Shown: one piece after another, positions 12,263 to 25,537 of the stretch
Layout: every line of letters starts with the position of its first letter
Position numbering within the stretch: position 1 is the stretch's first letter
Source: Arsukibacterium perlucidum DSM 18276
GTDB taxonomy: Bacteria; Pseudomonadota; Gammaproteobacteria; Enterobacterales; Alteromonadaceae
Direction of reading: 5' to 3'
NCBI RefSeq assembly: GCF_000382165.1
Contig: NZ_KB907711.1
Coordinates: 62,001-126,000, forward strand
DNA length: 64,000 bases
Translations under genes and position numbers: made by a program
The notes under the pieces: model-generated
Database searches by the model: none
Told to the model about the DNA's origin: nothing
Seen by the model: only the letters and a program-made list of their open reading frames with translations

Positions 12263-12298
12263 TAAATATTACAACTTAAAATAGTCTGTGCCATGGCA

Positions 12299-13339
12299 TT
12301 ACTGCACAGCAATGCGGTGGCCAACACCCGGCGCCTGTAGCTCACCAATAGGTTGTAAAATCAGATCGTATTCTAAGGCCAGTTTAATCACGGCAGCCTC
12401 TGCCGCCGGGCTGACCGCCAGCAACAGCCCGCCACTGGTTTGCGGATCGCATAACAACGCCTGCTGTTCAGCAGACAGCGGCGATACTTTAGCGCCGTAG
12501 CTGGCAAAATTACGACCACTGCCGCCCGGCACACAACCCTGAGCGATATAGTCCATTACACTTGGCAGTACTGGTATCTGCGCACTGTGCAAAATGGCAT
12601 TCAGCTTACTGCCCTCACACATTTCCAGCAGATGTCCCAGCAGCCCGAACCCCGTTACATCGGTCATAGCATGAATGCCATCCAGCTTAGCCAGATCTGC
12701 GCCGATGCGATTTAACTGCACCATAACATCAGACGCCAGAGTGGCATGTTCAGGCTGCAGTTTTTTCTGCTTCTGGGCTGTAGTTAAAATACCTACGCCC
12801 AGTGGCTTGGTTAAATACAGGCGATCGCCGGCCTGCGCCTGATCGTTGCGTTTTAAATGGCTGATAGCAACCCTGCCGCTTACCGCCAGGCCGAACATCG
12901 GTTCCGGCGCGTCGATACTGTGCCCACCGGCCAGCATAATTCCGGCTTGCTGACAAATATGACGCGCCCCTTCTAACACTTGTTGCGCCAATTCTGCCGG
13001 TAATTTATTAACGGGCCAGCCTAAAATGGCAATCGCCAGCAGTGGCTTGCCTCCCATCGCATAAATGTCGCTGATGGCGTTGCACGCCGCAATTCGACCA
13101 AAATCAAAGGCATCGTCGACAATAGGCATAAAAAAGTCGGTGGTACTGAGCAGTGCACTGCCATCACCAAGATCATAGGCTGCCGCATCGTCCTTATTGC
13201 TATTACCCACCAGCAGCTTAGGATCTGTGAAATTGATCTTAGTTTTAAGCATGGTATCGAGCACTTGCGGCGAGATTTTGCAGCCACAACCCGCACCGTG
13301 GCTGTATTCAGTTAATTTAATAGCAGAGAAATCAGACAT
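12299..13339 (-). CDS. selD: Selenophosphate synthase
   Basis: 346 residues from ATG 13339 (E. coli SelD is 347); the frame is open 27 codons further but those residues have no counterpart in the family. N-terminal motif [13 protein letters not shown] gives Cys18, the position that is Cys or selenocysteine in SelD proteins, and Lys21; the glycine-rich ATP-binding and AIRS-like domains follow (for example [11 protein letters not shown] and [10 protein letters not shown]). It makes selenophosphate from selenide and ATP. With mnmH downstream and no selA, selB or selC in the window, the visible use of selenium is tRNA modification. Confidence 0.96.
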
Positions 13340-13483
13340 AACAACACTAGGCAAAGACACAATAGCGCCAACATACCCAAAGCCTTTTGCAATAACAAGG
13401 GTTCTTTTAGCCGTTGGCAAGCCGCTAACGCACTATACTTAAGGCTATAAAGTCCAACAGCGCCATACGCTAAGGCCCAGCCA

Positions 13484-13597
13484 GTGGATAAAAAACAGAT
13501 TCTCGACCGCGCTTTGCAACTGGCTGAGCAAATCAGCAGTCTGAAACGGTTAAAGGCAGCACTGGCCACCTTTAATAAACTGGGATTATGCCGCTAA
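13484..13597 (+). CDS. Possible small coiled-coil ORF (37 aa)
   Basis: GTG at 13484 with AAGG about 8 nt upstream opens a 37-residue frame beginning VDKKQILDRALQLAEQ and ending NKLGLCR; the middle is an amphipathic, Leu-rich helix. It sits between the divergent selD and M1 peptidase genes. I do not recognise a family. Coding is uncertain: the only support is the ribosome site and a heptad-like composition. Confidence 0.3.
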   Translation: MDKKQILDRALQLAEQISSLKRLKAALATFNKLGLCR

Positions 13598-13706
13598 GTA
13601 AAACAAAGGTTTCACTGTTCCCCTTTAGGCAGCAGAGCGCACTAAACTTTGCCTGGCCGTGCTTTAGCATTACACTGCTAAGCATCCCCCCTATTTAAGG
13701 AAAACT

Positions 13707-15557
13707 ATGCTTAACCGTCTGCTCCTGATTTACGCCCTGCTGCTGGCCGGCATGGCATCTCCCAGCGCCGCTGCCGGCGGCGATAGTTACACTTACGCTA
13801 ATTATCAGCAGGTAACGGTCAGTCACCTGCACCTTGATTTGGCCATGGATTTTCAGCAAAAAACCTTAAGCGGTTTCGCTGATTTACAGTTGAACTGGCT
13901 GGTGCAAGATGCAACCGAGGTTTACCTGGATACCCGCGATTTAACCATCGAGCGGGTGTATGGCAAACAGCAAGACGGCAGCTGGCAAACAGTGCCATTT
14001 AAGCTGGCGGCACGAGATGCGGTACTGGGCAGCAAACTGACTATCAGCCCGGCGTTTCAGCCACAAATGCTACGTATTCATTACAGCTCAGCGCCTGAAG
14101 CATCAGGCTTGCAGTGGTTGAACCCCGAGCAAACTGCCGGTAAAACCACGCCTTTTATGTTTAGTCAGAATCAGGCCATTCATGGCCGCAGCTGGATCCC
14201 GGTTCAGGACACACCGGCCGTACGGATGAGCTACAGCGCCCGCATTCAGACCACCGACCAGGTGCTGGTAGTAATGAGTGCCCCGAACGACCCGGCCACA
14301 GCGCGTGATGGTGATTATCAGTTTTATATGCCACAACCGATACCGGCTTATTTAATTGCGATTGCCGCCGGCGATCTGCAATTTAAAGCAATGAGTGAGC
14401 AAACCGGTGTCTACGCTGAGCCCTATATTCTTGAGGCATCTGCTAACGAATTTGCCAGCACCCAGGCCATGATCGACGCCACCGAACAGCTTTATGGTGA
14501 ATACCGCTGGGGCCGTTACGATTTACTGATTTTACCACCCAGTTTTCCGTTTGGCGGTATGGAAAACCCGGTGCTGAGTTTTATTACCCCTACTGTGGTA
14601 GCGGGTGATGGCAGCCTGGTTAATCTGATCGCCCACGAGCTGGCCCATTCCTGGTCTGGCAATCTGGTGACTAACGCCACCTGGCGCGATCTATGGTTAA
14701 ACGAGGGCTTTACCTCCTATGTTGAAAACCGGATTATGGAGCAGGTGTTTGGTAGCGATCGTGCGGTAATGGAGCAGGCTTTATCGGTGCAGGCGCTCAA
14801 AGATGAACTGCAAGTACTCAGTGCCAATGACAGTATTTTGCATATTGACCTGCAGGGCCGCGATCCGGACGATGCTTTCAGCGGTGTGCCTTATACCAAA
14901 GGCCAGCTGTTTTTAATGGATCTGGAACAACAATTCGGCCGCGATAAGTTCGACCGGTTCCTGCGGCAGTACTTTGCTGACTATGCGTTTAAAAGCATCG
15001 ACACCGCAACCTTTGTTAACTACTTAGATAAAAACCTGCTGCAACAATACCCGGGGGTGGTGTCGCTTGAGCAAGCCAAAGCCTGGATTTACCAGCCCGG
15101 TTTGCCAGCGGGCACGCCTGAGCCGCAATCAGATGCGTTTACTCAGGTGCAACAGCATGCCAGCAACTGGCTGGCCGGCAACAGTGAACTTAGCAGCCTG
15201 CCCACCGCCAGCTGGACCGTGCACGAGTGGCTGTATTTCATCAACAACCTGCCGCTAAGCATCAGCCCTGAACAAATGGCAGCGCTCGATAACAGCTTTG
15301 GCCTGACGACTTCAACTAACAGCGAAATTGCGCATGCCTGGTATTTACTGGCGCTGAAAACCGGCTATCAGCAGGTGTTACCGCAGCTGGAGCAATACTT
15401 AATCGGCATTGGCCGGCGGAAACTGATTATTCCGCTATATAAACAACTGGCCAGCACGCCAGAAGGCCTGGCGTTTGCCCGGGCAGTTTACCAACAAGCC
15501 CGGCCGGGATATCACCCGCTGGCCCAGGGCAGTGTCGATGAGCTGTTGCGTAACTAA
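13707..15557 (+). CDS. M1-family aminopeptidase, leukotriene-A4-hydrolase type, exported
   Basis: 616 residues, the size of LTA4H-type M1 enzymes rather than the larger PepN. A Sec signal peptide (1-23, cleavage near AAAGG) is followed by the N-terminal beta domain, a GGMEN substrate motif (about 283), the zinc site HELAH at 310-314 with Glu333 in NEGFTSY, and a C-terminal helical repeat domain (from about 475) like the LTA4H C-terminus. It is predicted to remove N-terminal residues from peptides in the periplasm or outside. AAGGA lies 7 nt before the ATG. It stands 60 bp upstream of a three-gene cluster and may be co-transcribed with it. Confidence 0.93.
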   Translation: MLNRLLLIYALLLAGMASPSAAAGGDSYTYANYQQVTVSHLHLDLAMDFQQKTLSGFADLQLNWLVQDATEVYLDTRDLTIERVYGKQQDGSWQTVPFKLAARDAVLGSKLTISPAFQPQMLRIHYSSAPEASGLQWLNPEQTAGKTTPFMFSQNQAIHGRSWIPVQDTPAVRMSYSARIQTTDQVLVVMSAPNDPATARDGDYQFYMPQPIPAYLIAIAAGDLQFKAMSEQTGVYAEPYILEASANEFASTQAMIDATEQLYGEYRWGRYDLLILPPSFPFGGMENPVLSFITPTVVAGDGSLVNLIAHELAHSWSGNLVTNATWRDLWLNEGFTSYVENRIMEQVFGSDRAVMEQALSVQALKDELQVLSANDSILHIDLQGRDPDDAFSGVPYTKGQLFLMDLEQQFGRDKFDRFLRQYFADYAFKSIDTATFVNYLDKNLLQQYPGVVSLEQAKAWIYQPGLPAGTPEPQSDAFTQVQQHASNWLAGNSELSSLPTASWTVHEWLYFINNLPLSISPEQMAALDNSFGLTTSTNSEIAHAWYLLALKTGYQQVLPQLEQYLIGIGRRKLIIPLYKQLASTPEGLAFARAVYQQARPGYHPLAQGSVDELLRN

Positions 15558-15617
15558 CATTGATCTAAAACCCGCCGGCACCGTAACTGGTGCCATGGTG
15601 GCGAACTGAAACGACTG

Positions 15618-15962
15618 ATGAAAAAACTGTTTTATGATGGCAGCTGTAAGCTGTGCCAACGCGAAATCAGCGCCCTGGCGCCAAAACTAAGCCCGCATCT
15701 GCAGCTGGTCGATATCAGTGCAGCTGGCTTTAACGGCTTTGCCGGGGTAAGTAAAGGCGCCATGATGCAGCAAATTCATTTGTGGGATCAGGATCATTTT
15801 ATTATTGGTATCGACGCCAGCCTGCATTACTGGCATCTGGCAGGTTACCGCAAGCTGGTGGCATTTCTGCGCTTCGCTCCCTGTTACTGGCTAGCCGGCA
15901 AAGCTTACCGGCTTTGGGCGCGCAGCCGGGCAAATTGCTCTGATGGTAACTGCGCCTTGTGA
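15618..15962 (+). CDS. DCC-family (DUF393) thiol-disulfide oxidoreductase-like protein
   Basis: 114 residues. The start LFYDGSCKLCQREI is the DCC-family signature YDGxCxxC, giving a thioredoxin-like CxxC pair near residues 10-13; RFAPCYWLAGKAYRLWA near the C-terminus is also typical. Function is unproven for the family; a role in thiol redox chemistry is inferred from the motif. Its stop overlaps the GTG of the next gene (GTGA), so the two are translationally coupled. Confidence 0.85.
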   Translation: MKKLFYDGSCKLCQREISALAPKLSPHLQLVDISAAGFNGFAGVSKGAMMQQIHLWDQDHFIIGIDASLHYWHLAGYRKLVAFLRFAPCYWLAGKAYRLWARSRANCSDGNCAL

Positions 15963-16342
15963 GACCACGCCGGCCAGGGCGTAACCGCCCTGTTAGCAAA
16001 CAGCATGATGCAACCGATAAGCAGATTTTACGACTGCATCAGGCGATGGTAGATAAGCTGCTGGCCAATCCGGCGCTGTTGCCCGCTATTTACCAGCGGC
16101 TGGAGCAACGCTATCAGGCTGGTCAGCTAAGGCACAGCGGCTATATTCACTGGCACAGTATACTTGATTGTATTGAGCAGCCCGAAATGTTCCGGCGCGA
16201 ACTGCTGGACGAGGGCGAGCGGATGCGCAAATTGCGCCGCCGTACCATTCTCACCGGTATTTTAACCGAGCAGGAGCGGCTTGAACTGCTATATGCCGGA
16301 CCGGGCGACTCAAATAATCAAGTCATCGACCACAATAGCTAA
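15959..16342 (+). CDS. Conserved-looking protein of unknown function
   Basis: 127 residues from GTG 15959, overlapping the DCC gene by 4 bp. The first 12 residues are very Arg/Pro rich; an ATG-less alternative start further in cannot be excluded. The body is helical and charged (LHQAMVDKLLANPAL, RYQAGQLRHSGYIHWHSILD, RKLRRRTILTGILTEQERL) and has no signal peptide or membrane span, so it is probably cytoplasmic. I do not recognise a family. Tight packing between the DCC and DUF3429 genes marks it as part of the same operon. Confidence 0.7.
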   Translation: MRPRRPGRNRPVSKQHDATDKQILRLHQAMVDKLLANPALLPAIYQRLEQRYQAGQLRHSGYIHWHSILDCIEQPEMFRRELLDEGERMRKLRRRTILTGILTEQERLELLYAGPGDSNNQVIDHNS

Positions 16343-16351
16343 GGACAGAGC

Positions 16352-16789
16352 ATGAAACTGATTAACACCCTGGGCTACGCCGGCTTACTGCCTTTTGCCT
16401 TACTGCCACTGGCTTATCATCTGCAGTGGCAGGTTGGCAGCACACCGTTACTGCTGCTGTATCAGTTATACAGTGCGCTGATTTTAGGCTTTATGGCGGG
16501 TGTGCTGTGGCCGGTGCTGCATCAACAGCAAAACCCTGCCAAAACCAGCAAACTTGCTGTGCTGGCGGTGAGCTTTCCGGTAATAAGTATTATCGGCCTG
16601 GCACTTACTCCTGGTTATTTCTTACTGCTACAGGCCCTGCTATTTGTGCTGCTGCGCATAACCGAATTCAGCTCGGGCATTAATCAGCATTACATCAAGT
16701 CTTATCAGGGCCTGCGCCATGCCTTAACCCTGGTCGTCACTGTCAGTCACTTAGTGATGTATGTGCTGCTTAGGCTATCTGTAAGCTAA
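16352..16789 (+). CDS. DUF3429 inner-membrane protein
   Basis: 145 residues with about five hydrophobic helices and almost no loops. The start LGYAGLLPFALLPLAY and YQLYSALILGFMAGVLWPVL match the DUF3429 pattern (GYxGLxPF and YxxxILxFxxGVxW). Function unknown. It is the last gene of the DCC cluster, 9 bp after the previous stop, and the last chromosomal-type gene before the cassette array. No clear hairpin terminator follows. Confidence 0.8.
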   Translation: MKLINTLGYAGLLPFALLPLAYHLQWQVGSTPLLLLYQLYSALILGFMAGVLWPVLHQQQNPAKTSKLAVLAVSFPVISIIGLALTPGYFLLLQALLFVLLRITEFSSGINQHYIKSYQGLRHALTLVVTVSHLVMYVLLRLSVS

Positions 16790-17142
16790 ATCGCTCCCAA
16801 CATGTCAGATAGATAACAGCTGGAACCCCGTTTTGGTCACCACAGAGTGTCTGAGTAAGCGTGAGCGAATGACAAATACGTCGGGAACGTATTTGAACAG
16901 CTTTGCTGGCTTGCGAAGGACAGGATGTCCGAATTAATTGCTGTGGCGAGCCAAGGCGGGTGTTGCAGCCGTTATCTCAGCATGCCGGATACAACGCTAT
17001 TTCAGAAGTTCTATCCTCTATTGCTCAAGCTAGATATATCGGCAAGCCCGCACTCAGCGTTAGACCGAAGTTTCCGTATTTGTCTTGATTATTAATATTG
17101 CATGTCCCCATAAATCATTGTAAATAAGCCGGTTACGTTGTA
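16790..17142. other. Non-coding region left of the cassette array
   Basis: About 350 bp without a convincing gene. It holds a perfect hairpin CAAATACGT-cggga-ACGTATTTG (16874-16896) with no T run, and an isolated core-like GTTAGAC at 17060-17066, which fits the GTTRRRY consensus of integron recombination sites. Upstream ATACAACGC (about 16989-16997) could be a poor partner for it. This could be a decayed cassette, an attI-like site or a REP-type element; I cannot decide between them. Confidence 0.4.
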
Positions 17143-17220
17143 ATGTCTGCCACATCATATTTACAAAGACGGAACAATCCGCATTTAATTACGGAATTTT
17201 CCGTCGAATAAGCGTTATGC
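17143..17220 (+). repeat. Possible attC/attI-like site at the left end of the array
   Basis: A hairpin pairs GACGGAACAATCCG (from 17168) with CGGAATTTTCCGTC (to 17204), 12 of 14 positions, and is followed by core GTTATGC at 17214-17220, the recombination point where the first clear cassette begins. No good R'' box (GCATAAC or GTCTAAC) is present; the nearest is GTCTGCC at 17147. The core is secure because the first cassette's own 3' R'' box is complementary to it; calling the whole segment attC is tentative. Confidence 0.45.
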
Positions 17221-17235
17221 CGTTCGGAGATATCA

Positions 17236-18297
17236 ATGAATGATTCGATAAGATCAAAACTTCCGTTTTTATTTCTTGTCTGTATTTCGATAGGGTGGGG
17301 TTTTTATTACCAATCTAACAGCAAGCTAAATGACTATGGCAGCGCGAACTTTGAATGGCTGTTTCTTTTGGATGCATTAATAGTACTACCGATAATCTGT
17401 TTCGTCTGTGCTAAAAATAAAAAAGAAGGCTTGTTAAAAGCTGTTGTTTTAGGCTGCTTAGCTGTTCTGATCGGTAGTTACATTATTCCTGAGCAAAGTA
17501 AACTAATCTGGCATTATCTTGAAAATGGTCGCTATTTTGTCTTGGCTGTTATTCTGTTGTTTGAACTTGTTGCAATTTTAACAGTGTATCTTGCGATTAA
17601 AGCAGCCATCGGTAAGAGTGAAGATCCCGATCTTTCGATAGAAAAGCCAATAAAAAAATACTTGGGTGAAAGTCCTGTTGCGTCTTTATTGACTTTTGAA
17701 ACGAGGATGTGGACATTTGCTTTTTTTGCAAATCGCATCAAACCAAAACATTTCAGAGGTGAGCAACACTTTACCTATCATCAGAAAGATGGCGCAAAAA
17801 GTAACTTGCTAGGTTTCATCTTCCTCATTGCATTTGAAATGCCAATTATGCATCTGGTGTTGCACTTTATCTGGTCACCTCTTGCTGCAAATGTTGTCAC
17901 ATTACTCACGATTTTTAGTTTGGTATTTTTTATTGCAGAGTATCGGGCACTTTCGAGAAGGCCAATTTCTTTAGTTTGTAATAAGTTATTTGTTCGTTAT
18001 GGGCTTTATCATCCGCTGGTAATACCGTTAGAGAACATTGTTAAAATTGAAAGAAATAACGAGTTTGTTCCTCGCTCGAAATTTGTAAAGCGTTACAATT
18101 ACTCAGGTAATCCAAATATCAGAATTGAACTTTCAGAGCCGTTGGGGTCGGTTAATTCAATTTTCATTGGTGTTGATAATGCCGAGTATTTTATCTCAGC
18201 TTTGTTAGATTCAGCATCACGGCATAACAATCAAATATTATCGCCAGCAAAAAGCGCTGGCTGCGACGTCAACCCGCTGCGCGGCTTTCCGCGCTAA
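17236..18297 (+). CDS. Cassette-encoded multi-pass membrane protein, C-terminus encoded by attC
   Basis: 353 residues, GGAG 8 nt before the ATG. Predicted membrane helices lie at about 10-26, 41-59, 68-85, 98-120, 193-215 and 217-235; between the fourth and fifth is a cytoplasmic-looking loop (about 120-190), and the last third (about 240-325) is a PH-like or bPH2-like beta-rich segment (LFVRYGLYHPLVIPLENIVKIER). I do not recognise a named family. The frame passes the R'' box GCATAAC without stopping and ends at TAA 18295-18297 inside attC, so the last 24 or so residues (NNQILSPAKSAGCDVNP...) are recombination-site sequence. The natural protein probably ended near SALLDSASR and gained this tail. 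Confidence 0.8.
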   Translation: MNDSIRSKLPFLFLVCISIGWGFYYQSNSKLNDYGSANFEWLFLLDALIVLPIICFVCAKNKKEGLLKAVVLGCLAVLIGSYIIPEQSKLIWHYLENGRYFVLAVILLFELVAILTVYLAIKAAIGKSEDPDLSIEKPIKKYLGESPVASLLTFETRMWTFAFFANRIKPKHFRGEQHFTYHQKDGAKSNLLGFIFLIAFEMPIMHLVLHFIWSPLAANVVTLLTIFSLVFFIAEYRALSRRPISLVCNKLFVRYGLYHPLVIPLENIVKIERNNEFVPRSKFVKRYNYSGNPNIRIELSEPLGSVNSIFIGVDNAEYFISALLDSASRHNNQILSPAKSAGCDVNPLRGFPR

Positions 18298-18312
18298 ATT
18301 TGGGCGTTATGT
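18222..18312 (+). repeat. attC site 1
   Basis: R'' GCATAAC (18222-18228) to R' GTTATGT (18306-18312), 91 bp. Inner arms CAAAT/ATTTG and hairpins GCCAGC/GCTGGC and GCGG/CCGC are visible. Positions 18236-18309 are identical base for base with attC 2, which is typical of sedentary chromosomal integrons. Confidence 0.92.
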
Positions 18313-18342
18313 TCACCTCAAATCATAATCAAGGAGTTACAT

Positions 18343-18480
18343 ATGAGTAAAAATTTAAGAAAAACAGCTGCATACACTGCTTTGGTTTTAGTACTTGGGT
18401 GTGTTGCATTTTACGCATCAATGGAAGATTACCAGAAAGAAAATTTTTCAAAGTTAGTCAGCCAAACCTTTTCAGGATAG
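18343..18480 (+). CDS. Cassette-encoded small membrane protein (45 aa)
   Basis: ATG 18343 with AAGGAG 6 nt upstream opens a 45-residue frame: a basic N-terminus (MSKNLRKTAAY), one hydrophobic helix (about residues 11-27) and an acidic/polar tail (MEDYQKENFSKLVSQ). It could be a single-pass membrane peptide, or a lipoprotein-like product since LVLGC precedes a Cys at residue 20. It is the only ORF in its 329-bp cassette and is placed exactly as cassette genes usually are, close to the 5' edge. No family recognised. Confidence 0.72.
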   Translation: MSKNLRKTAAYTALVLVLGCVAFYASMEDYQKENFSKLVSQTFSG

Positions 18481-18550
18481 GCTTTTGCTGGATTAACTAA
18501 TTGTATTTTTTTAAAGCTTTTTGCATGGGTGCATTTCAAATAGCAAGTGA

Positions 18551-18641
18551 ACATAACAAAAAAATATTATCGCCAGCAAAAAGCGCTGGCTGCGACGTCA
18601 ACCCGCTGCGCGGCTTTCCGCGCTAAATTTGGGCGTTAGGC
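18551..18641 (+). repeat. attC site 2
   Basis: R'' ACATAAC (18551-18557) to R' GTTAGGC (18635-18641). The extended R'' GTGAACATAAC is complementary over 11 nt to the start of its own cassette (GTTATGTTCAC from 18306). The body is identical to attC 1 over 74 bp. Confidence 0.92.
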
Positions 18642-18658
18642 AAACAAGGAGTAAGTAG

Positions 18659-19072
18659 ATGGATCAAATTAAAAATCGAGTAATCGCAGTCATTTTAGGT
18701 ATTGCGCTGGCTTATGCGTCAATTGCTATTGCAGGTATTGGTGCTGCGGTAGCCATACCAGCTGACATTCTAAAACCTGTTGCACAAGTATCAGGCTTAC
18801 TTGCGTTCACTCTGGTCGACTTGTTCACCATCGCGGTGCCGCTGGCAGCAGCATTTTTAGTGGTAGCTTTTGCCAGTAAGCTGGTAATCAGCAAGCCAGA
18901 TTTCACTTTTTATGCGTTGTTGCTCGCGCCTCTGGTGCTATTGCAACTGTATTTTGTTGCACAATCACAGCCTCAGATGCTCAATAACATCATAACAACG
19001 CTTCCACGTTATCTTTTGTTGGCCGTGTGTTTTTACTTCTTGGTTCGCAGCAGTAAGAGGGCAAATGCCTAA
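18659..19072 (+). CDS. Cassette-encoded four-helix membrane protein
   Basis: 137 residues; AAGGAG is 7 nt before the ATG. Four hydrophobic helices (about 9-30, 42-69, 82-103 and 113-130) with short loops and a basic C-terminus (RSSKRANA) suggest a small integral inner-membrane protein. Composition is rich in Ala, Val, Leu and Ile, without charged residues within the helices. The stop codon TAA lies inside the R'' box GCCTAAC, a common economy in cassettes. Family not recognised. Confidence 0.8.
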   Translation: MDQIKNRVIAVILGIALAYASIAIAGIGAAVAIPADILKPVAQVSGLLAFTLVDLFTIAVPLAAAFLVVAFASKLVISKPDFTFYALLLAPLVLLQLYFVAQSQPQMLNNIITTLPRYLLLAVCFYFLVRSSKRANA

Positions 19073-19156
19073 CAAGGCCAGTCAGCAACGGCCACTGCGT
19101 GGCCTGGACCTCAAACCCGCTGCGCGGCTTTTCGGCCGCTGCTGGCTGCGTTATAT
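19067..19156 (+). repeat. attC site 3 (divergent type)
   Basis: R'' GCCTAAC (19067-19073) to R' GTTATAT (19150-19156). Arms AAGGCCAGTCAGCAACGGCC and GGCCGCTGCTGGCTGC pair well. It shares only the central AACCCGCTGCGCGGCTTT block with attC 1, 2 and 4, so this cassette probably came from a different pool. Confidence 0.88.
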
Positions 19157-19170
19157 TTCAAGGAGGGTTG

Positions 19171-19914
19171 GTGAAGCATTTAGTTTTAGTTTTAGTTTTT
19201 TCTTTTCTGGTTGTTGGCTGCACCAGTTTAAAAGACGTTAGTGAAAGCAGCCATAATTCTGAATCTTTTGTTGGTATAGAAGATGGAAATCTGATTTATC
19301 AAGGTGAAATAACTGAAGCATCAAATGATGTGATTTTTTCATCGTATAGGGCTGCTGAATTCAAGCCAAACCGACTGCTTATTTCGAGCCAAGGCGGTGA
19401 GATTGGTGCGGGAATGAATTTAGGTCAATGGGTCAGAGATAATAATTTGGATGTTGAGGTCATAAGAGTATGCGCTTCTTCTTGTGCTAACTATGTATTA
19501 CCAGCTGCCAATACGAAGTACTTAAGAAAAGACTCGATTCTGATATGGCATGGCAGCGCTTGGCAATCCAATTGGCATGTTGATCATGAGCACCGAGAAA
19601 CGTTCAATACACACATCACTTTAATGCGTCAGAAGGAAACTGATTTTTACGCGGATATCGCAGTCGACAACTTACTAACTACTTACGGCCAGTCTAAATT
19701 TAATTTCTTGGACTTCACTCTGGGCTTGTTTGGCAAAGGAGCTGTTGGTTACGATTACTCTAAAGCTGATATGGAAAAATTTGGACTAGTTAATATCGTA
19801 CTCTTAGATGGCGAATGGGATTGGAGAAAATATCGGCCTGATAGAGCAAGTCTGGTAAAGCGTATCAAGGTTGACGATGATTTTGAGTTTGAGCTCCGTA
19901 GATTTGAAATATAA
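19171..19914 (+). CDS. Cassette-encoded lipoprotein with ClpP/crotonase-like fold (COG3904-like)
   Basis: 247 residues from GTG 19171, with AAGGAGG 4 nt upstream; the ATG-initiated extension upstream (19099) runs through attC and is not genuine. A lipoprotein signal (VKHLVLVLVFSFLVVGC) is followed by a domain with ClpP-type landmarks: LLISSQGGEIGAGMNLGQW (oxyanion strand), VCASSCANYVLPAA (nucleophile Ser within CASSC) and LIWHGSA (candidate His). Such proteins are presumed periplasmic serine peptidases related to SppA/NfeD/ClpP. A disulfide between the two Cys of CASSC is possible. The TAA stop is inside R'' ATATAAC. Substrate unknown. Confidence 0.82.
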   Translation: MKHLVLVLVFSFLVVGCTSLKDVSESSHNSESFVGIEDGNLIYQGEITEASNDVIFSSYRAAEFKPNRLLISSQGGEIGAGMNLGQWVRDNNLDVEVIRVCASSCANYVLPAANTKYLRKDSILIWHGSAWQSNWHVDHEHRETFNTHITLMRQKETDFYADIAVDNLLTTYGQSKFNFLDFTLGLFGKGAVGYDYSKADMEKFGLVNIVLLDGEWDWRKYRPDRASLVKRIKVDDDFEFELRRFEI

Positions 19915-19999
19915 CAAACAAATGTTATCGCCTGCGAACAGTGCTGGCTGCGACGTAAACCCGCCGCGCGGCTTTCCGCGCTAAATTTGGGCGTTAGCT
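19909..19999 (+). repeat. attC site 4
   Basis: R'' ATATAAC (19909-19915; GAAATATAAC pairs with the cassette start over 10 nt) to R' GTTAGCT (19993-19999). Same type as attC 1 and 2 with about seven differences in the 74-bp body. Confidence 0.9.
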
Positions 20000-20052
20000 A
20001 GCAAATGCAGGTGCGGTGTAACTGCGATGGACTCTTAAGATATGGATGTTAA

Positions 20053-21135
20053 ATGACCAAATTTAGTATGTTTGCTTTACTCTGTTTGTTACCTCTTTGT
20101 ACAGCTTGTACTCAGAAGTCTGTGATCGTTAACCATGCTGCACTTGATGCTCAATTGTTAGCAAATGCACAAAAACACGGAATTCCCGGTCAGGCCCTGT
20201 TGGTGATGCACAATAGCGATATCTTGTACCGAAATGCCATCGGTACGACTGCCATCAAAGACGGCGTACCGGTCACGCCGACGACTGCCTTTCCCGTCTA
20301 CTCTGTCACTAAGTTGTTTACTATCACGCTCGCTATGCAGTTACAGGAAGAAGGAAAACTTGATTTTTCTGCTCCTGCTTCACAATACGTCGACAATTTA
20401 CCGCCTTCCTGGCGCAGTATACGTATCGAGCAGTTTCTGAATCATGCTTCAGGCATTCCTGAGTATTTTGACAGTAATGATTTTTCGCGTCCGTTTCCAG
20501 CCAGTCTAGCTGCCGTATTTGCAAAGTTAGACAAAGTCGCACTTATATCAGAGCCGGGTGAGCGGACGAGCTATACCAATACCAACAATCTGGTGATTGC
20601 TGCTGTACTGGAGGCTATCACACGCACACCTTACCGCGAGCTGTTGCACCAGCGAATCATAAAACCGTTGAACCTTCAGGAGACGTGGCTCAACCTTGCT
20701 GATGTACCCAAGGCTCGCCTTGTGAAAAGCTATCGGGTGGGAACAGGCCAGATTATGCCTGATCTGGCCATCTCGTGGCCAGATTACAGCATCGCACATG
20801 TCGGCGCGTACATGACTCTGGATGATTTAGGCAAATTTATGTCCGCATTAGCCCAAGGGCGATTCGTTGCAAAGTCAGAACTACTGCGGCTATGGCAGCC
20901 CTATAAACTTGCAAACGGCGCTACGGGCTTTTTTGCACACGGTTTGGATTACAGTGAGTGGGGACGTTGGCTCGAAGTTGGTCATGATGGGGGGACCAAA
21001 GTTCGGGCGCGGATCTTGTTCGATGACAATCTTGATGATCATTACGTGATCGTCTATTTGACCAATGGCAATATGGATGGAGTCTGGTCGCATACGCTTG
21101 TCCGTTCAATCCAGACGATTGTATTGCCGAATTAG
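20053..21135 (+). CDS. Cassette-encoded serine hydrolase, class C beta-lactamase/esterase fold, lipoprotein
   Basis: 360 residues. The signal MTKFSMFALLCLLPLCTAC ends in a lipobox-like Cys. Catalytic motifs of the beta-lactamase (class C)/DD-peptidase superfamily are all present: SVTK (SxxK, in VYSVTKLF, about residue 85), YTN (in RTSYTNTNN, about 174) and HDGGT (about 313). Members act as esterases, peptidases or true class C enzymes; the sequence does not show which, and the third motif is HxG rather than KTG, which argues against a classical AmpC. No clear Shine-Dalgarno precedes the ATG. It fills its cassette, with 59 bp of leader. Confidence 0.85.
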   Translation: MTKFSMFALLCLLPLCTACTQKSVIVNHAALDAQLLANAQKHGIPGQALLVMHNSDILYRNAIGTTAIKDGVPVTPTTAFPVYSVTKLFTITLAMQLQEEGKLDFSAPASQYVDNLPPSWRSIRIEQFLNHASGIPEYFDSNDFSRPFPASLAAVFAKLDKVALISEPGERTSYTNTNNLVIAAVLEAITRTPYRELLHQRIIKPLNLQETWLNLADVPKARLVKSYRVGTGQIMPDLAISWPDYSIAHVGAYMTLDDLGKFMSALAQGRFVAKSELLRLWQPYKLANGATGFFAHGLDYSEWGRWLEVGHDGGTKVRARILFDDNLDDHYVIVYLTNGNMDGVWSHTLVRSIQTIVLPN

Positions 21136-21136
21136 C

Positions 21137-21231
21137 TCTTGGATAGCAGGAGCATCTTGTCGCAAGCAAACTGCGCGGACTGCGCTTTCAACCCGCAGTC
21201 CGGATTTGCACGCTCATTTGGGGCGTTAGCT
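21137..21231 (+). repeat. attC site 5, degenerate
   Basis: R' GTTAGCT (21225-21231) and a strong central hairpin GGACTGCG/CGCAGTCC are intact, plus outer pairs GCAAA/TTTGC. The expected R'' (AGCTAAC, extended GCTAGCTAAC) is absent; only TTAGCTC is found after the stop codon. The site should recombine poorly or not at all. The left limit is approximate. Confidence 0.65.
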
Positions 21232-21255
21232 TTTTGATTAAACAATGGACATAGC

Positions 21256-22050
21256 ATGAAGTTCTGGAATTTATTTTTTATAGTGAGCCTACTATTACCG
21301 AATTACTGCAACGCAGTTGTAAAGCGACACGATATTCCTCAAGAACAATATTTGGTTAAAAATGTACCGGAGTATTTGATTGATATGCCTCACGAGGGGC
21401 ATGGTGTGCTGATTGCACCTCAATGGATTGTTACAGCAGCACATGTCATTTTTTATGACTACACAGGTAAAAGCATAAAAATTGGTGGTGAAAGTTACAC
21501 AATTGAATCAGTAACCAAACATCCTGATTATATCGAGCCAGACGAATCTTTGTTTAAGGGAGATGCTGCACGATTAATGGCTTTCTTTGCTGCAAGGAGT
21601 GATATCGCGTTAATCAAGCTTTCATTACCAGTCAGTAGTATCACTCCGGTGGAAATTTATCAGGAAGACAATGAAGTGGGGCAAACTGTCACTGTGTTTG
21701 GTCGGGGAGCCACAGGAAACGGTTTAATTGGTGAGGACTTGAGTACTAAACCTCTACGTAAAATGCATTCCTTTCATAACAAAATTGATGGTGCAAAGGG
21801 TAATTGGCTGACGTATAAGTTTGATTCACCGCCTGATTCATTGCCGCTTGAAGGCATTCACGGCTCTGGTGACAGCGGAGGTGCATCCGTTATTTTCCTT
21901 GATGGTGAGCCTTATCTTGCTGGATTATCAAGTTGGCAGTATTGGCAAGGTGACCTTTCTACATTCAAAGGTGGTCTGTATGGCACTACCGCGTACCAAG
22001 TAAGGTTATCTGTCTACAAAGATTGGATTTTAGGTGTGTTGGCTAGCTAA
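21256..22050 (+). CDS. Cassette-encoded trypsin-like (S1) serine protease, exported
   Basis: 264 residues. A Sec signal peptide (MKFWNLFFIVSLLLPNYCNA) precedes a chymotrypsin-fold domain with the full triad: WIVTAAHVIF (His about 62), RSDIALIKL (Asp about 118) and GSGDSGGASV (Ser about 212). There is no pair of trypsin-type disulfides, as usual for bacterial S1 enzymes. It is likely a secreted or periplasmic protease of narrow specificity. The TAA stop falls inside the R'' box AGCTAAC. Only a weak ribosome site precedes the ATG. Confidence 0.9.
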   Translation: MKFWNLFFIVSLLLPNYCNAVVKRHDIPQEQYLVKNVPEYLIDMPHEGHGVLIAPQWIVTAAHVIFYDYTGKSIKIGGESYTIESVTKHPDYIEPDESLFKGDAARLMAFFAARSDIALIKLSLPVSSITPVEIYQEDNEVGQTVTVFGRGATGNGLIGEDLSTKPLRKMHSFHNKIDGAKGNWLTYKFDSPPDSLPLEGIHGSGDSGGASVIFLDGEPYLAGLSSWQYWQGDLSTFKGGLYGTTAYQVRLSVYKDWILGVLAS

Positions 22051-22120
22051 CACATGCCAGCACAACGCGTGTTCAGCGCGACTCGCAACAAGTTGCTAGC
22101 GTGTGTTGCGGGCGTTAGTT
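22045..22120 (+). repeat. attC site 6
   Basis: R'' AGCTAAC (22045-22051) to R' GTTAGTT (22114-22120), 76 bp, arms CAGCACAACGC and GCGTGTGTTGCGGGC pairing. Its extended R'' GCTAGCTAAC pairs over 10 nt with the start of the fifth cassette (GTTAGCTAGC, 19993) but only 7 nt with the start of its own nominal cassette, suggesting that 19994-22114 now moves as one unit. Confidence 0.85.
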
Positions 22121-22135
22121 TTATAGGGTTAGTTG

Positions 22136-22561
22136 ATGCAATCTACAATTAAAAAAACATTGTTTAATATTGGCGGTTATTCTTTTTGGATTTTATTGGT
22201 TTGCTGGGGGGTTTTATTCCTTATTCTCAAGAGTTGTCAAACGCTCTGTCACCATACCGTTGTAAATGCGGTTTCGTCACCAAATGGTGAGCAAGTAGCA
22301 GAAATAAGCATCGGCGATTGCGGTGGGGCTACGACAGACTTTTTTGGTAGTGTTGATGTAAAAAGTAACAATCCGAAACTGCGTGCTGAAAACTTATTTA
22401 CCTTTGCGGGTCGTCCCGAAGAAACAGGGCTTGAGGTATATTGGGTTAATGACAACGAGCTTGTTATCAGTGTCTCTGATCTTTATAAAGCTCGGACTAT
22501 AAATCCTAATGGTAGAAAAAGTGCTGATTTAAAAGTAAGTTATCAGTATCGTAAGTTGTAA
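22136..22561 (+). CDS. Cassette-encoded membrane-anchored protein, DUF5412-like
   Basis: 141 residues from ATG 22136 (AGGG upstream; a TTG one codon earlier is unlikely). One N-terminal membrane helix (about 14-32) anchors a periplasmic beta-rich domain. The phrases VSSPNGEQVAEIS, CGGATTDFFGSVDV and LEVYWVNDNELVISV resemble DUF5412-type domains (SPxGxYxA, GATT, WxxDNxL), a family of unknown function; the match is by eye and moderate. It is the last ORF with an attC relationship before the array is interrupted. Confidence 0.72.
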   Translation: MQSTIKKTLFNIGGYSFWILLVCWGVLFLILKSCQTLCHHTVVNAVSSPNGEQVAEISIGDCGGATTDFFGSVDVKSNNPKLRAENLFTFAGRPEETGLEVYWVNDNELVISVSDLYKARTINPNGRKSADLKVSYQYRKL

Positions 22562-22562
22562 A

Positions 22563-22627
22563 AACCAACAAACAAATATTATCGCCAGCAAAAAACGCTG
22601 GCTGCGACGTCATCCCGCTGCGCGGCT
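22563..22627 (+). repeat. attC site 7, 3'-truncated
   Basis: R'' AACCAAC (22563-22569) and the first two thirds of the attC 1/2 body are present up to CGCGGCT; the sequence then leaves the consensus and the R' core is missing. The last cassette therefore has a broken site and could not be excised alone. The junction near 22627 marks an old deletion or insertion. Confidence 0.85.
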
Positions 22628-22664
22628 CGCCACCCATGTGCTATGCCCTGGTTACCATTGCCTT

Positions 22665-22700
22665 ACCCGTCAAGTGATACTATAGTGCCACTTAAAGTTT
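22665..22700 (+). promoter_or_regulatory. Promoter/operator region of the toxin-antitoxin pair
   Basis: AAGTG (22672-22676) and CACTT (22689-22693) form an inverted repeat around TACTAT (22678-22683), a plausible -10. Antitoxins of the Phd/YefM type usually bind such dyads to repress their own operon. Inferred from position and symmetry only. Confidence 0.4.
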
Positions 22701-22716
22701 AGACTGGGGTGAATCT

Positions 22717-22974
22717 ATGAAAGTTGAGCTTGTTACAAACCTCAAGCGCCAAGCTACAAAAATCCTGGCAGACTTGCATCATACCAAAGAGCCGGTCTTG
22801 ATCACGGAGCATGGTCAGCCATCTGCATACCTTGTAGATGTGCAGGATTACGAATTTATGCAGCGTCGACTTGCGCTGCTTGAAGGGCTCTCCCGGGGAG
22901 AGCTTGCGGTACTGGATGGCAGAACGTATAGCCAAAGTGAGGCCAGAGAGAAAATGAGTAAATGGCTGAAGTAA
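22717..22974 (+). CDS. Phd/YefM-family antitoxin
   Basis: 85 residues. The N-terminal DNA-binding part (VELVTNLKRQATKILADLH, then PVLITEHGQPSAYLVDVQDYEFM) is the standard Phd/YefM fold; the C-terminal tail (about 50-85) should wrap and neutralise the toxin. The gene overlaps the toxin start by 13 bp, the classic antitoxin-first order. It lies directly beside the truncated end of the cassette array. Such pairs are frequent in large chromosomal integrons, where they are thought to stabilise arrays. Confidence 0.92.
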   Translation: MKVELVTNLKRQATKILADLHHTKEPVLITEHGQPSAYLVDVQDYEFMQRRLALLEGLSRGELAVLDGRTYSQSEAREKMSKWLK

Positions 22975-23264
22975 TCTGGACCGAGCCCGCCCTTCAAGAA
23001 CTGGATGCCATCGCTGAGTACATTGCTTTGGACAAGCCTGTTGCCGCAAGTCAGCTGATCCAGGAAGTTTTCGATAAGATCGGGCATTTGGAAAAATTCC
23101 CTAAATCCGGGCGGATCCCTCCAGAGCTCCCTGATTCGGTATACAGGGAGGTAGTGGTTACACCGTGTCGTATTTTTTATCGTGAGGATGGGCAGCGGGT
23201 TCTCGTTCTCTATGTCATGCGAGAGGAGCGGCAGCTTCGCGTGTACATGCTTGAAAACAGCTAA
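22962..23264 (+). CDS. ParE/RelE-superfamily toxin
   Basis: 100 residues. Pattern VIWTEPALQELDAIAEYIALDKP, FDKIGHLEKFPKSGRIPPEL, YREVVVTPCRIFYRED and VLYVMREERQLR is that of ParE-type toxins of the RelE/ParE fold, small proteins that inhibit gyrase or cleave mRNA. Start ATG 22962 lies inside the antitoxin gene. The TAA stop is embedded in AGCTAAC (23259-23265), the form of an R'' box, as in the true cassette genes, so the pair may be a decayed cassette. Length is complete and no frame damage is visible. Confidence 0.92.
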   Translation: MAEVIWTEPALQELDAIAEYIALDKPVAASQLIQEVFDKIGHLEKFPKSGRIPPELPDSVYREVVVTPCRIFYREDGQRVLVLYVMREERQLRVYMLENS

Positions 23265-23381
23265 CAATCCGGCTCATTCGGATGCCTTTGTTTCCGCTTC
23301 GCCCAAACCTGACATTTGCAATTATCAAATCTTACCGAAATATACATGTCAGGTGGTGGGCTTGCCTGCTAAATGGCGCTG
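23259..23381 (+). other. Possible attC remnant after the toxin gene
   Basis: AGCTAACAATCCGG... starts like an attC (R'' AGCTAAC plus a small hairpin ATCCG/CGGAT) but no R' core (GTTRRRY) follows before the HDOD gene. It may be the left arm of a lost attC. Otherwise nothing is seen in this gap. Confidence 0.35.
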
Positions 23382-24194
23382 CTACTGCAACATCGCACTT
23401 ATATCGCTTTCCTCTTCGGTAAAGTCGCGCATGCTGGCGTAAGTGTCATCTAAATTCATATGTGCAGCATGAATTAACTTCACCGGCAACTCGTCAAAAT
23501 TACCTTCGCTGACATGCTCCCGGTAATGAATCATATAGCGGGCCAGATAGAGTAACGTGGCATAAGGCAGCAAGGTGCCACTGCCGGCGGGTTGTTGCTG
23601 CCACAAAATAGCATCGGCGATATCGTCCGGAAACTTCCAGTATTTTGCCAGTTCACTGCCGGCCATGGTGTAATCAAAGCCGAATAATTCGAGCTGGGTT
23701 TTGCGCCGGGCTGCTCCACCCTCTACCTGCTCGTCGATGGTTTTAGCAAGCTCGGGTTCAATGATATGAATAAGATACTCACCAATGCCATGCAGCAAGC
23801 CACAGGTATAGGCGACTTCCGGGTCGGCTTTATTTAATTTAGCCAACCATTTTGCCCGGTTGGCCAGCATAAATGAACGACGCCAAAAGGCGTTTAAATC
23901 GAAGGTAGCAGGTGCTTTAAAACTGGAGACTAAACCAATAGATAACACCAGGGTGCGCAGTGCATCCCGCCCTAATACTACCAGCGCATCTTTAACCGAA
24001 CCTACTTTGCGCTGGCGACCATAGCGCGCCGAATTTGCCAGGCGCAATACCTTGGCGGTAATGGCCTGATCGCTGGTGATAATAGTAGCCAGTTTGTCAG
24101 TCGACACATCGTCGTCGTTCATACTGGCGATCAGCTTTTGCACCACTTCCGGAATACTGGGTAAATTGGTTGCTTGCTCGATCATTTGCTGCAT
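23382..24194 (-). CDS. HDOD-domain signalling protein
   Basis: 270 residues. The N-terminus LPSIPEVVQKLIASMNDDDVSTDKLATIITSDQAITAKVLRLANSA is the hallmark of HDOD domains, followed by LGRDALRTLVLSIGL and a helical core with HGIGEYL and ELFGFDYTMAGSELAKYW. HDOD proteins act in signal transduction and chemotaxis-type control without the metal-binding HD pair; here HGIG and no HD confirm this. No receiver or output domain is attached. It is transcribed towards the array and is the first chromosomal-type gene on its right side. Confidence 0.92.
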   Translation of the reverse strand: MQQMIEQATNLPSIPEVVQKLIASMNDDDVSTDKLATIITSDQAITAKVLRLANSARYGRQRKVGSVKDALVVLGRDALRTLVLSIGLVSSFKAPATFDLNAFWRRSFMLANRAKWLAKLNKADPEVAYTCGLLHGIGEYLIHIIEPELAKTIDEQVEGGAARRKTQLELFGFDYTMAGSELAKYWKFPDDIADAILWQQQPAGSGTLLPYATLLYLARYMIHYREHVSEGNFDELPVKLIHAAHMNLDDTYASMRDFTEEESDISAMLQ

Positions 24195-24310
24195 GGCGTT
24201 CTGATTCCACTACTTATCTGAAGAAACGGTTTAGCTTTTTAATGAGCTTAATGGCTAGGCTACAACTTCACAAGTAATCAAAGCACAGAATTTAGTTATT
24301 TAGTCCGCAC

Positions 24311-25363
24311 TTAAAATGGTAGTGGATGTTGCCGTAAATACTGGTTGAGATCCTCGCTTAGCGCTGCGCTGATCTTCAAACTAAAGGCTGCAATATTCTG
24401 CTGCAGCTGCGGCATAGTGGTGGCGCCGATAATGGTGGAGGTAACACCCTCTACCTGATTTACCCAGGCTAACGCCAGCGCAGCGGGGTTAAGCTGATGG
24501 CTGGCAGCTAACTCAGTAAAGGCCGCTATCGCTTGCGCAGACTGCGGCGTGTCGCGAAACAAACCATTGCGCTGTAGCATACTCCAGCGGCTACCCTCTG
24601 GCCTTGCGCCATGCAGATATTTACCACTTAACGCCCCGCCAGCCAGCGGTGACCAGGGCAGGTAAGCGATATTTTCATGCCAGCATTGTTCAATTAAATA
24701 AGGCCAGTCTTTGGTATGCAGAAGGCTGAATTCGTTCTGGATAGAGACCATGCGCGGTAAGTTATGTTCAGCACTGAGCTTAAGATACTGGCTGATGCCC
24801 CAGGGCGTTTCATTAGATAAGCCACAAAAGCGGATTTTGCCCGCCTTAACACAGCTATCCAACGCCTGCAATAAACCGAGGATTTGCTCTGTTTGTTCGG
24901 CAGAATTAACCTCTGCAAAGCCAACACGGCTCACACTATGCCTGCCAAAGTGTGGCGATACCCGGTTTGGCCAGTGCAACTGGTATAAATCCAGATAATC
25001 TGTTTGCAACCGCGTTAACGACTGATCCACCGCCTGCTTTAAGGTTGCCGGCGTCATTATGCCGCCGCCACGAATATACGATAAGCCACTACCCGCCATT
25101 TTGCTGGCCAGAATAATGTTTGATCTTTGGCCACTGTTGCGGCTAAGCCAGTTACCTATTATTCGTTCTGTCGCACCATAAGATTCGGCCGTTGGCGGCA
25201 CTGAATACATTTCTGCGGTATCGATAAAATTAACACCCTGCGCCAGCGCATACGCCAGCTGGCTGTCAGCGTCTTGCTGAGTATTCTGGGTACCCCAGGT
25301 CATGGTTCCCAGACAAACCCGGGATACCTCAATGTTGCTGCTGCCAAGTACTGAATATTGCAT
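24311..25363 (-). CDS. tas: Tas-type NADP(H)-dependent aldo-keto reductase
   Basis: 350 residues, a (beta/alpha)8 aldo-keto reductase. MQYSVLGSSNIEVSRVCLGTMTWG, NFIDTAEMYSVPP (Asp and Tyr of the tetrad), the SLTRLQTDYLDLYQLHWPNR stretch, GLSNETPWGISQYL and IIGATTMPQLQQN align well with E. coli Tas as remembered, including the same length. The family reduces small carbonyls; the physiological substrate of Tas is unclear. It is a single gene between the HDOD and M16 genes with no sign of an operon. Confidence 0.9.
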   Translation of the reverse strand: MQYSVLGSSNIEVSRVCLGTMTWGTQNTQQDADSQLAYALAQGVNFIDTAEMYSVPPTAESYGATERIIGNWLSRNSGQRSNIILASKMAGSGLSYIRGGGIMTPATLKQAVDQSLTRLQTDYLDLYQLHWPNRVSPHFGRHSVSRVGFAEVNSAEQTEQILGLLQALDSCVKAGKIRFCGLSNETPWGISQYLKLSAEHNLPRMVSIQNEFSLLHTKDWPYLIEQCWHENIAYLPWSPLAGGALSGKYLHGARPEGSRWSMLQRNGLFRDTPQSAQAIAAFTELAASHQLNPAALALAWVNQVEGVTSTIIGATTMPQLQQNIAAFSLKISAALSEDLNQYLRQHPLPF

Positions 25364-25497
25364 AGCTAATCCGTTGTGAAGACAATAGTTAAATCGATTA
25401 CGCTGTTTTAAGCAGACTTTTTTGCCACTTTAGGGGCTTAGCCCGCAAAATACCAGCAATACCCCTGCACCATACCATAATAAAAATGCAGTAATAA

Positions 25498-25522
25498 AAA
25501 CGCCACCCGCAGGTGGCGTTTT
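25498..25522. terminator. Bidirectional rho-independent terminator
   Basis: CGCCACC-cgca-GGTGGCG (25501-25518) flanked by AAAAA on the left and TTTT on the right. It ends the M16 peptidase transcript (- strand) 20 bp after the stop. Confidence 0.85.
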
Positions 25523-25537
25523 GGCAGCTAAATTAGC

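Follow-up and report, generated by a model that had tools for sequence, protein, structure and literature searches.

The analyzed stretch of DNA (hereafter, the window) comprises 64,000 nt of the draft genome of Arsukibacterium perlucidum DSM 18276 (4.0 Mb, 82 contigs) and is a part of its contig C11; other genomes, contigs, and loci are denoted below by G, C, and L numbers. Seven open reading frames (ORFs) within positions 17236-22561 of the forward strand constitute the cassettes of an integron-type array, and the coordinates given for them in a preliminary description of this DNA were reproduced. The cassettes are delimited by seven attC sites and headed by an attI-like element of 162 bp (17059-17220, forward strand), which ends at the GTTATGC of the first cassette. 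No integrase gene (intI) adjoins this element: the single match over the intI cut-off in this genome is on contig C10 and none is in the window, where no intI remnant was found at E<=1e-4 either. Such an element without an adjacent integrase gene is referred to below as a solo attI.

The attC sites, all on the forward strand, were identified in a covariance-model search of the complete assembly with E-values between 5.4e-21 and 5.8e-4: attC 1 at 18222-18312 (5.4e-21), attC 2 at 18551-18641 (1.1e-19), attC 3 at 19067-19156 (1.0e-16), attC 4 at 19909-19999 (1.4e-19), attC 5 at 21141-21231 (5.8e-4), attC 6 at 22045-22120 (2.0e-7), and attC 7 at 22563-22653 (1.9e-6). The model was trained on 12 sites from three arrays of the same genome, the initial family of which came from a repeat search, and five of the window sites (attC 1-4 and attC 6) are members of the training set that match by construction; the independent ones are attC 5, a weak site with a degenerate R'' box, and attC 7, the final site, which has no GTTRRRY at the expected right end. 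In the alignment of the 12 sites, 89.1% of cells are paired, versus 65.4% in shuffles, and compensatory changes are present at all seven pairs of the inner helix. This covariation test was used in place of single-strand DNA folding, the site-by-site z-scores of which range from -0.4 to -3.5 and fall below -2 for two of the seven sites. Genome-wide the model gave 37 matches, including arrays on C6, C10, C34, C59, C1, and C11, two sites on C33, and single sites on C25 and C7. A second attC detector of our own was re-weighted with known sites that it had at first failed to find, so that its threshold of 12.5 is a tuned one; at this threshold it gave 25 matches in shuffled versus 176 in real sequences (later scripts used 12.0), and it also misses sites detected by the covariance model. 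An Rfam scan of positions 12000-28000 returned one sub-threshold match only. An array is defined by at least two attC sites in which the pairing of R and L is conserved, and the region exceeds this number; with no intI nearby it is not a complete integron, in which intI lies beside attI, and it belongs to the clusters of attC sites lacking an integron integrase (CALINs; as defined in the available text of PMC9024848 and PMC8618304).

The leader is located between the left flank gene (16352-16789, forward strand), identified by orthologue comparison and encoding a membrane protein of 145 aa, and cassette 1. Its sequence can be aligned with that of the intI-linked attI region of C10, and both end in the same GTTA, i.e., the leader shares sequence with an intI-adjacent attI and stops at a cassette boundary. 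A survey of the genus yielded 68 matches to the element in 29 of 31 genomes, with 1-6 matches per genome, a few of them being two pieces of one place. Among 30 fetched loci, intI is present within 1.5 kb in four and absent in 26, whereas attC sites were found downstream by the covariance model at 21 of the 30 loci and at 18 of the 26 intI-less ones; all 39 attC matches at the fetched loci are on the expected side and strand. When the copies from the 30 loci, C10, and C6 are aligned (32 in all), a strongly conserved core is apparent, ATTTACAAA...CCGTGTTTAAATACGGAT...CCGYCGAATAAGCGTTA. A block TTGNNN-N17-TAATGT or a near variant of it occurs at the same position and spacing in 30 of the 32 copies; its form in the window, TTGTAA-N17-TAATGT (17118-17146, forward strand), is suggestive of a promoter. 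The leader starts with TTAGAC or TTAGGC in 21 of the 32 copies (counted by eye) and ends with GCGTTA, as cassettes do.

Apart from loci assigned to this genus, a profile search of 435 sequences (the profile being built without L433, L417, and L414) detected the element in a record named Alishewanella longhuensis (L299:4411-4527), which may itself belong to the genus, approximately 1.5 kb ahead of a ClpP-like gene, and a weak partial match in G155; the plasmid and phage collections contained no match to it. Set A8 was used without L301 (in-frame stop in the matched range), L303, L327, and L350. Three further features of these elements were observed. In some of the elements at L429-L432, the core palindromes of attI covary, with GGAAAAGTCC-type versions turning into GGTCGACC-type ones, which may indicate that the site is folded or bound by a dimer. 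The stretch directly upstream of the window's solo attI (16800-17058) is common to G201, and a part of it (50-52 bp, 85-96% identity) is found near the L410 element. Two same-orientation elements in G212 (C1:843467 and 851253) are about 7.8 kb apart, as if heading tandem arrays.

A tree of 31 copies (without L433) separates the five intI-linked elements and L425 from the other 25, with a support of 0.878 on a short alignment. The L425 element thus groups with the intI-linked ones, yet it has no intI within 1.5 kb, and it probably represents a case of intI loss.

A cassette captured by an integron integrase brings the R' half of its site to the attI junction and retains the pairing R'' half in its own attC. 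The window junction GTTATGC pairs with GCATAAC at attC 1. Over 15 testable solo sites, the reverse complement of the R'' box of the first attC agrees with the junction in 54 of the 60 positions, the match being perfect at 12 sites; counting only the varying positions, since the remaining one is A at every site, the agreement is 39 of 45. In 20,000 shuffles the mean was 30.6 and the maximum 45 of 60. The 15 sites derive from the 21 attC-bearing loci after exclusion of the three intI-linked ones and of L410, L414, and L425, which have no usable junction or R'' box; the mismatch at L409 was kept in the count, although the attC that the model places nearest there is likely to be the second of this locus, with a closer site detected by our own program.

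Comparison of orthologous sites reveals cassette turnover. Loci L412, L413, L415, L416, and L419 from five genomes have a common upstream flank (82-93% identity over 620-1300 bp) and no downstream DNA similarity past attC-sized stretches. The same was observed for the window's own site and its counterpart in G201 (L405/L406), as well as for L429/L432: the upstream flanks are shared and the cassettes are different. Cassettes also travel between sites. The C6 array, likewise headed by the element, has a lipoprotein cassette with a close counterpart (92.3% identity over 533 bp) in the G201 array at the site orthologous to that of the window. The G097 assembly is a single 3.3-Mb contig with three intI genes, and its elements at 1373512 and 1982989 lie over 1 Mb from each of these genes; a 97% copy of window cassette 7 is located on the same strand approximately 8 kb behind one of the two elements, with attC sites on the strand of this copy in the fetched part. 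In G212, the first position after a solo attI is taken by the cassette for the ClpP-like lipoprotein. Because the junctions are exact, the cassettes at orthologous sites have been replaced, and cassettes have moved between arrays, the sequences indicate that solo sites have stayed in use. As to the origin of the window's site, the orthologues of its two flank genes are only 0.56-0.66 kb apart, with no array between them, in G126 (L379) and G199 (L377), which, judged from gene order and not from a species tree, suggests that the lineage of A. perlucidum and G201 acquired the site.

These data bear on the more conventional view that the region is an ordinary CALIN, i.e., an old integron that has lost its integrase gene and whose attI and cassettes are a decaying remnant. 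Loss of intI is a route to CALINs in the available text of PMC8618304, and integrase-less arrays have been proposed to be degraded integrons (PMC9024848, as far as its available text goes); the L425 locus resembles such a case, and the degenerate attC 5 and attC 7 of the window would fit decay. On this view, the absence of an intI remnant at E<=1e-4 from the window would have to be accommodated, and the 25 other intI-less elements would not be expected to form one branch apart from the intI-linked copies and L425, as independent losses repeated at many loci should not produce such a split. The exact junctions and the exchange of cassettes at orthologous solo sites also argue that the sites remained functional. 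We consider the remnant explanation unlikely.

The interpretation that we regard as likely is that region 17059-22653 is an array with its own attI-like site, filled in trans by the integrase encoded on C10, and that its cassettes are independent of each other, the three adjacent hydrolase genes described below being neighbors by coincidence. The C10 integrase would insert cassettes at the solo attI, and the first cassettes would be expressed from the leader. Each cassette would represent one independently acquired gene, with a product working alone in the membrane or envelope, and the hydrolase trio would have been drawn from a pool of cassettes in the same genome that is rich in exported serine hydrolases. 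A broader version, which we favor by a small margin over its negation, is that the whole genus operates a multi-site integron, in which dispersed leaders with the promoter-like block evolve apart from the integrase-linked attI, a single integrase acting in trans inserts, removes, and exchanges their cassettes, and the leader itself has spread in the manner of a cassette.

All seven cassette products were predicted to be membrane or exported proteins, in agreement with the preliminary description. Localization was assigned by our own crude hydropathy and signal rules. Cassette 1 (17236-18297) encodes a multi-transmembrane protein of 353 aa, the final residues of which are encoded within the attC site; cassette 2 (18343-18480) encodes a 45-aa signal or one-transmembrane peptide; neither has a Pfam family. 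Cassette 3 (18659-19072) encodes a 137-aa protein with four transmembrane segments and a weak, below cut-off similarity to PF14256, and cassette 7 (22136-22561) encodes a 141-aa one-transmembrane protein similar to DUF5412 (24.3 bits, cut-off 25). Cassettes 4, 5, and 6 encode, by the same rules, one clear lipoprotein (19171) and two proteins with signal peptides (20053 and 21256), so that the export signals on which the earlier interpretation depended are present. All these genes are on the forward strand. Of the two lipoproteins originally proposed, the product of 19171 retains its lipobox in relatives, whereas that of 20053 has a doubtful one, with Cys at -3, and the cysteine is missing in two relatives of 71 and 74% identity.

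To estimate the local background, we sampled intI-adjacent regions of 39 other genomes, 40 in total and none longer than 20 kb, many being truncated by contig ends; 30 of these regions gave cassettes, providing 332 cassette ORFs (three listed twice) and 330 other ORFs as a control. Depending on the threshold, 41-55% of cassette ORFs and 36-47% of control ORFs were scored as membrane or exported. At this cassette baseline, seven of seven has a post hoc probability of 0.002-0.016, and none of 164 seven-cassette stretches in the sample was entirely exported. Thus, the envelope theme is real and exceeds the local baseline. In the available text of earlier surveys, about one-third of cassettes have a signal peptide or transmembrane domains, and 11-14% have signal peptides (PMC10963911); the signal-peptide or export figures for archaeal cassettes are 13.2% versus 6.9% in their genomes (PMC9668308), and the corresponding share in Xanthomonas cassettes is 11.6% (PMC12444791).

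The claim that three consecutive cassettes encode serine-hydrolase folds was borne out by family searches and structure prediction, with the active-site residues intact in each protein. Cassette 4 (19171-19914, GTG start) encodes a predicted lipoprotein of 247 aa with a C101-x-S103-S104-C105 motif and H127; C101, S103, C105, and H127 are invariant in both alignments. The protein itself falls below the cut-off for PF00574 (E 0.25, 11.6 bits, cut-off 20.2), and 7 of 14 members of its family match this Pfam at E<=0.1, the best at 1.3e-4. Its AlphaFold model (pLDDT 89.1, pTM 0.83, alignment of 34 sequences) resembles the structures of ClpP and SppA, with a top Foldseek E-value of 8.9e-7; for the best 50 of 1217 matches, the target TM-scores do not exceed 0.61 and the identities are 12-18%. 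The model therefore points to a ClpP fold with Ser and His in position: ClpP and SppA have the same fold and the same order of these residues, whereas the window protein differs from them in being a lipoprotein with the C-x-S-S-C motif and in its sub-threshold Pfam score.

Cassette 5 (20053-21135) encodes a member of the PF00144 family of beta-lactamase, DD-peptidase, and esterase-like proteins (E 5.8e-56, 190.5 bits, cut-off 27). Its S84xxK87 and Y174 are invariant in 12 of 12 sequences, and H311 and G313 of the HxG motif (311-313) in at least 90%. The best-scoring solved relatives are IS11, an alkaline D-peptidase, a PBP-related protein, and an R61-type DD-carboxypeptidase. The protein shares family and the S-x-x-K, Y, and H-x-G motifs with the R61-type DD-peptidase, alkaline D-peptidase, and class C beta-lactamases; unlike such named enzymes, it is below the cut-off of all 25 NCBIfam families listed (of 47 matched), including the class C beta-lactamase equivalog (62.9 bits, cut-off 415). 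Therefore, beta-lactam resistance should not be assumed for this cassette; its substrates may be D-amino-acid peptides, the cell wall, or esters, and it is probably not a genuine enzyme of class C. Cassette 6 (21256-22050) encodes a secreted trypsin-like protease of the S1 family (PF00089; E 3.3e-12, 47.1 bits, cut-off 20.6), with the triad H63, D116, and S207 invariant in 14 of 14 sequences. The ClpP-fold lipoprotein and the S1 protease would cut peptides in or outside the periplasm. The best of the weak PADLOC hits is that of the protease to the LmuA profile (E 1e-6), which probably arises through the protease domain alone.

From the adjacency and common export of these three hydrolases, the preliminary description had proposed a co-selected module acting jointly on extracellular peptides, toxins, or cell-wall material in defense or competition. 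The envelope theme of that proposal stands, whereas the single module does not. The search for homologues covered 196 family genomes, many of them drafts in which contig breaks could hide pairs. Those of the trypsin-like protein are present in 71 genomes, of the ClpP-like protein in 34, of the PF00144 protein in 15 (at E<=1e-50), of the DUF5412-like protein in 29, and of the 353-aa membrane protein in 36. The homologues of the trio are scattered, on different contigs or far apart, the very outcome that had been named in advance as refuting joint action, and two members within 20 kb were seen in no other genome when the tables for these 196 genomes were read by eye. In the flanks (up to 6 kb) of the best 80 of 136 ClpP-like loci, a trypsin-type neighbor was found at none and a PF00144-type match at three. 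In a separate set of 80 fetched regions of 3-12 kb, two of the trio are together in three regions, each with a PF00144 match of only 22-27% identity. Pairs that reach outside the trio were found in G183 (ClpP-like and DUF5412-like) and G155 (membrane protein and trypsin-like), and a weak membrane-protein match adjoins a trypsin-like one in G106.

The same genes were repeatedly encountered in other company. The ClpP-like cassette is present alone or with other neighbors in Shewanella, G126, G097, and G212; three Shewanella records contain it at 89% identity, with an attC directly behind each copy, and G126 has it (85%) in one array and the PF00144 cassette (81%) in two others with other neighbors. 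A 99% identical copy of cassette 1 was found in another genus (G081). Judging from such copies, near-identical cassettes of the ClpP-like and 353-aa proteins have moved across large distances. As an observation in its own right, G126 carries the PF00144 cassette twice per genome (L178 and L179), with different neighbors in each array. Matches to known anti-phage systems in PADLOC were weak and partial, with no co-occurrence, so the trio corresponds to none of them.

Within the arrays of the A. perlucidum genome, at least one run of three hydrolases has a permutation P of 0.24 (hand-counted arrays), i.e., three in a row is unsurprising because these arrays hold many hydrolases. A second run, of two PF00144 cassettes and a trypsin-like one on C10, speaks for grouping, the P-value for two arrays with one run each being 0.009. 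In this analysis, 35 cassettes of the own genome were counted by hand, and the comparison with the genus used 10 of 253, one ClpP-like cassette outside the listed ORFs being added; that comparison is repeated below with the automatic counts. Weighed together with the weak LmuA similarity of the protease and with the adjacency itself, this second run leaves the joint module very improbable, and we rejected it because the homologues do not co-occur. The hydrolase trio is most likely a chance meeting.

A different question is whether serine hydrolases are favored as a class. Nine hydrolase cassettes were found in the attC arrays of this genome, namely four PF00144, three PF00089, one PF00756, and one ClpP-like. 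Besides the window trio, they include three that immediately follow the intI-linked attI of C10 (the two PF00144 cassettes and the trypsin-like one), a trypsin-like cassette on C6, a PF00756 esterase on C59, and a PF00144 cassette on C34 with an attC directly before it and the next detected attC far behind. By one automatic pipeline, hydrolases account for 8 of the 27 cassette ORFs listed here, whereas 11 other members of the genus together have 9 of 253 (p 3.6e-5). With near-duplicates counted once, the p-value is 1.1e-4, and without the window array the share is 5 of 23 versus 9 of 253 (p 0.003); the automatic ORF list includes four of the seven window cassettes, and a twelfth genome of the genus, G204, gave no ORF. 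Thus, in comparison with the 11 genomes, the enrichment is real, with the qualification that it is post hoc. Among 320 of 323 cassette ORFs of at least 60 aa from the wider family (three duplicate L240 entries removed), the Pfam matches listed (25 families each of 42, 46, and 56) include at least two for PF00144, at least one for PF00089, at least two for S41, and at least one for PF00905. Two ORFs of an intI-linked array in G097 (C1; L218:8278-9546 and 18000-19010) resemble the S41-peptidase matches, to which they were assigned by length and sequence.

Exported serine hydrolases may have been selected in the cassette pool as a class of interchangeable enzymes without a fixed module, an idea compatible with the independent cassettes proposed above; breakdown of antimicrobial peptides or D-amino-acid peptides is an example of such a selective role. 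The nine cassettes, the contrast with the rest of the genus, and the few related matches in the wider family favor it. Against it, seven of the 11 other genomes with ORFs contain no hydrolase, the class was defined post hoc, two of the trypsins are near-duplicates, and our rules predict no signal peptide for one of the nine proteins (C10, 339 aa). We hold class selection as a tentative possibility.

The array is followed on the forward strand by a toxin-antitoxin pair of the Phd/ParE type (22717-23264; PF02604, 9.8e-15, and PF05016, 4.1e-18), which is not clearly a member of the array. The pair adjoins the degenerate attC 7, and since an attC-start-like stretch follows it at 23262, it is perhaps a former cassette. 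The right flank gene (23382-24194, reverse strand, 270 aa), identified by orthologue comparison, is presumably an HDOD protein.

Several points weigh against the proposal of an array filled in trans with independent cassettes. The survey for intI covered 1.5 kb on either side of an element and was wider only in G097 and A. perlucidum, and the covariance model found no attC at 8 of the 26 intI-less loci. The TTGTAA-N17-TAATGT block was not called in a scan for sigma-70 consensus promoters. Attached attC sites, counted with our own detector and hence as lower bounds, flank 8 of 28 homologues of the trypsin-like protein, 4 of 20 of the ClpP-like, 2 of 11 of the PF00144, 2 of 3 of the DUF5412-like, and 5 of 15 of the membrane protein; by this detector most homologues are without them, and these families clearly also exist as ordinary genes. 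The paired runs of three hydrolases leave some room for non-random grouping, and the hydrolase enrichment is a post hoc observation, made with profiles built from proteins of the same genome and their homologues. Finally, the arrangement has a precedent: in the available text of PMC9892861, the Shewanella prophage M16-3 is described as carrying a CALIN that has an attI of its own and accompanies a complete integron, which is the one earlier case.

The M16-3 CALIN, as far as that text describes it, resembles the window array in having no integrase, in its own attI, and in the presence of an intI-bearing integron in the same genome; unlike this single prophage case, the element described here has 1-6 matches per genome in nearly the whole genus, some of them at conserved chromosomal sites. 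The window array agrees with CALINs in general in its several attC sites and cassettes with no intI nearby, and differs in being headed by a full attI-like element of a dispersed family, with cassette turnover at orthologous sites. The origins named for CALINs in the available portions of PMC9024848 and PMC8618304 are off-target insertion, loss of intI, and rearrangement, attI dispersal not being among them there. In Delta-attI-type cassettes of class 1 and class 2 integrons, an attI is likewise carried within a mobile unit, but according to the accessible part of the source (PMC12901181) these are mostly short attI fragments that replace the attC behind a resistance gene, whereas the leader of about 160 bp heads whole arrays. 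No other report of dispersed attI sites was found by title or abstract in the open literature, a search that leaves subscription papers uncovered and is no proof of absence. CALINs being well known, what is new here is at most a variant with dispersed solo attI sites, at which recombination in trans would take place.

Cassettes near attI are those expected to be expressed (available text of PMC9024848). If a genome indeed maintains several live solo attI sites served by one integrase, it could retain several first-position cassettes simultaneously, and many CALINs would then be functional components. Dispersed attI sites could be widely overlooked, because the standard program, according to the same text, does not detect attI sites outside class 1. 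A cassette pool biased toward exported serine hydrolases would, in turn, provide a testable case of selection on environmental integrons.

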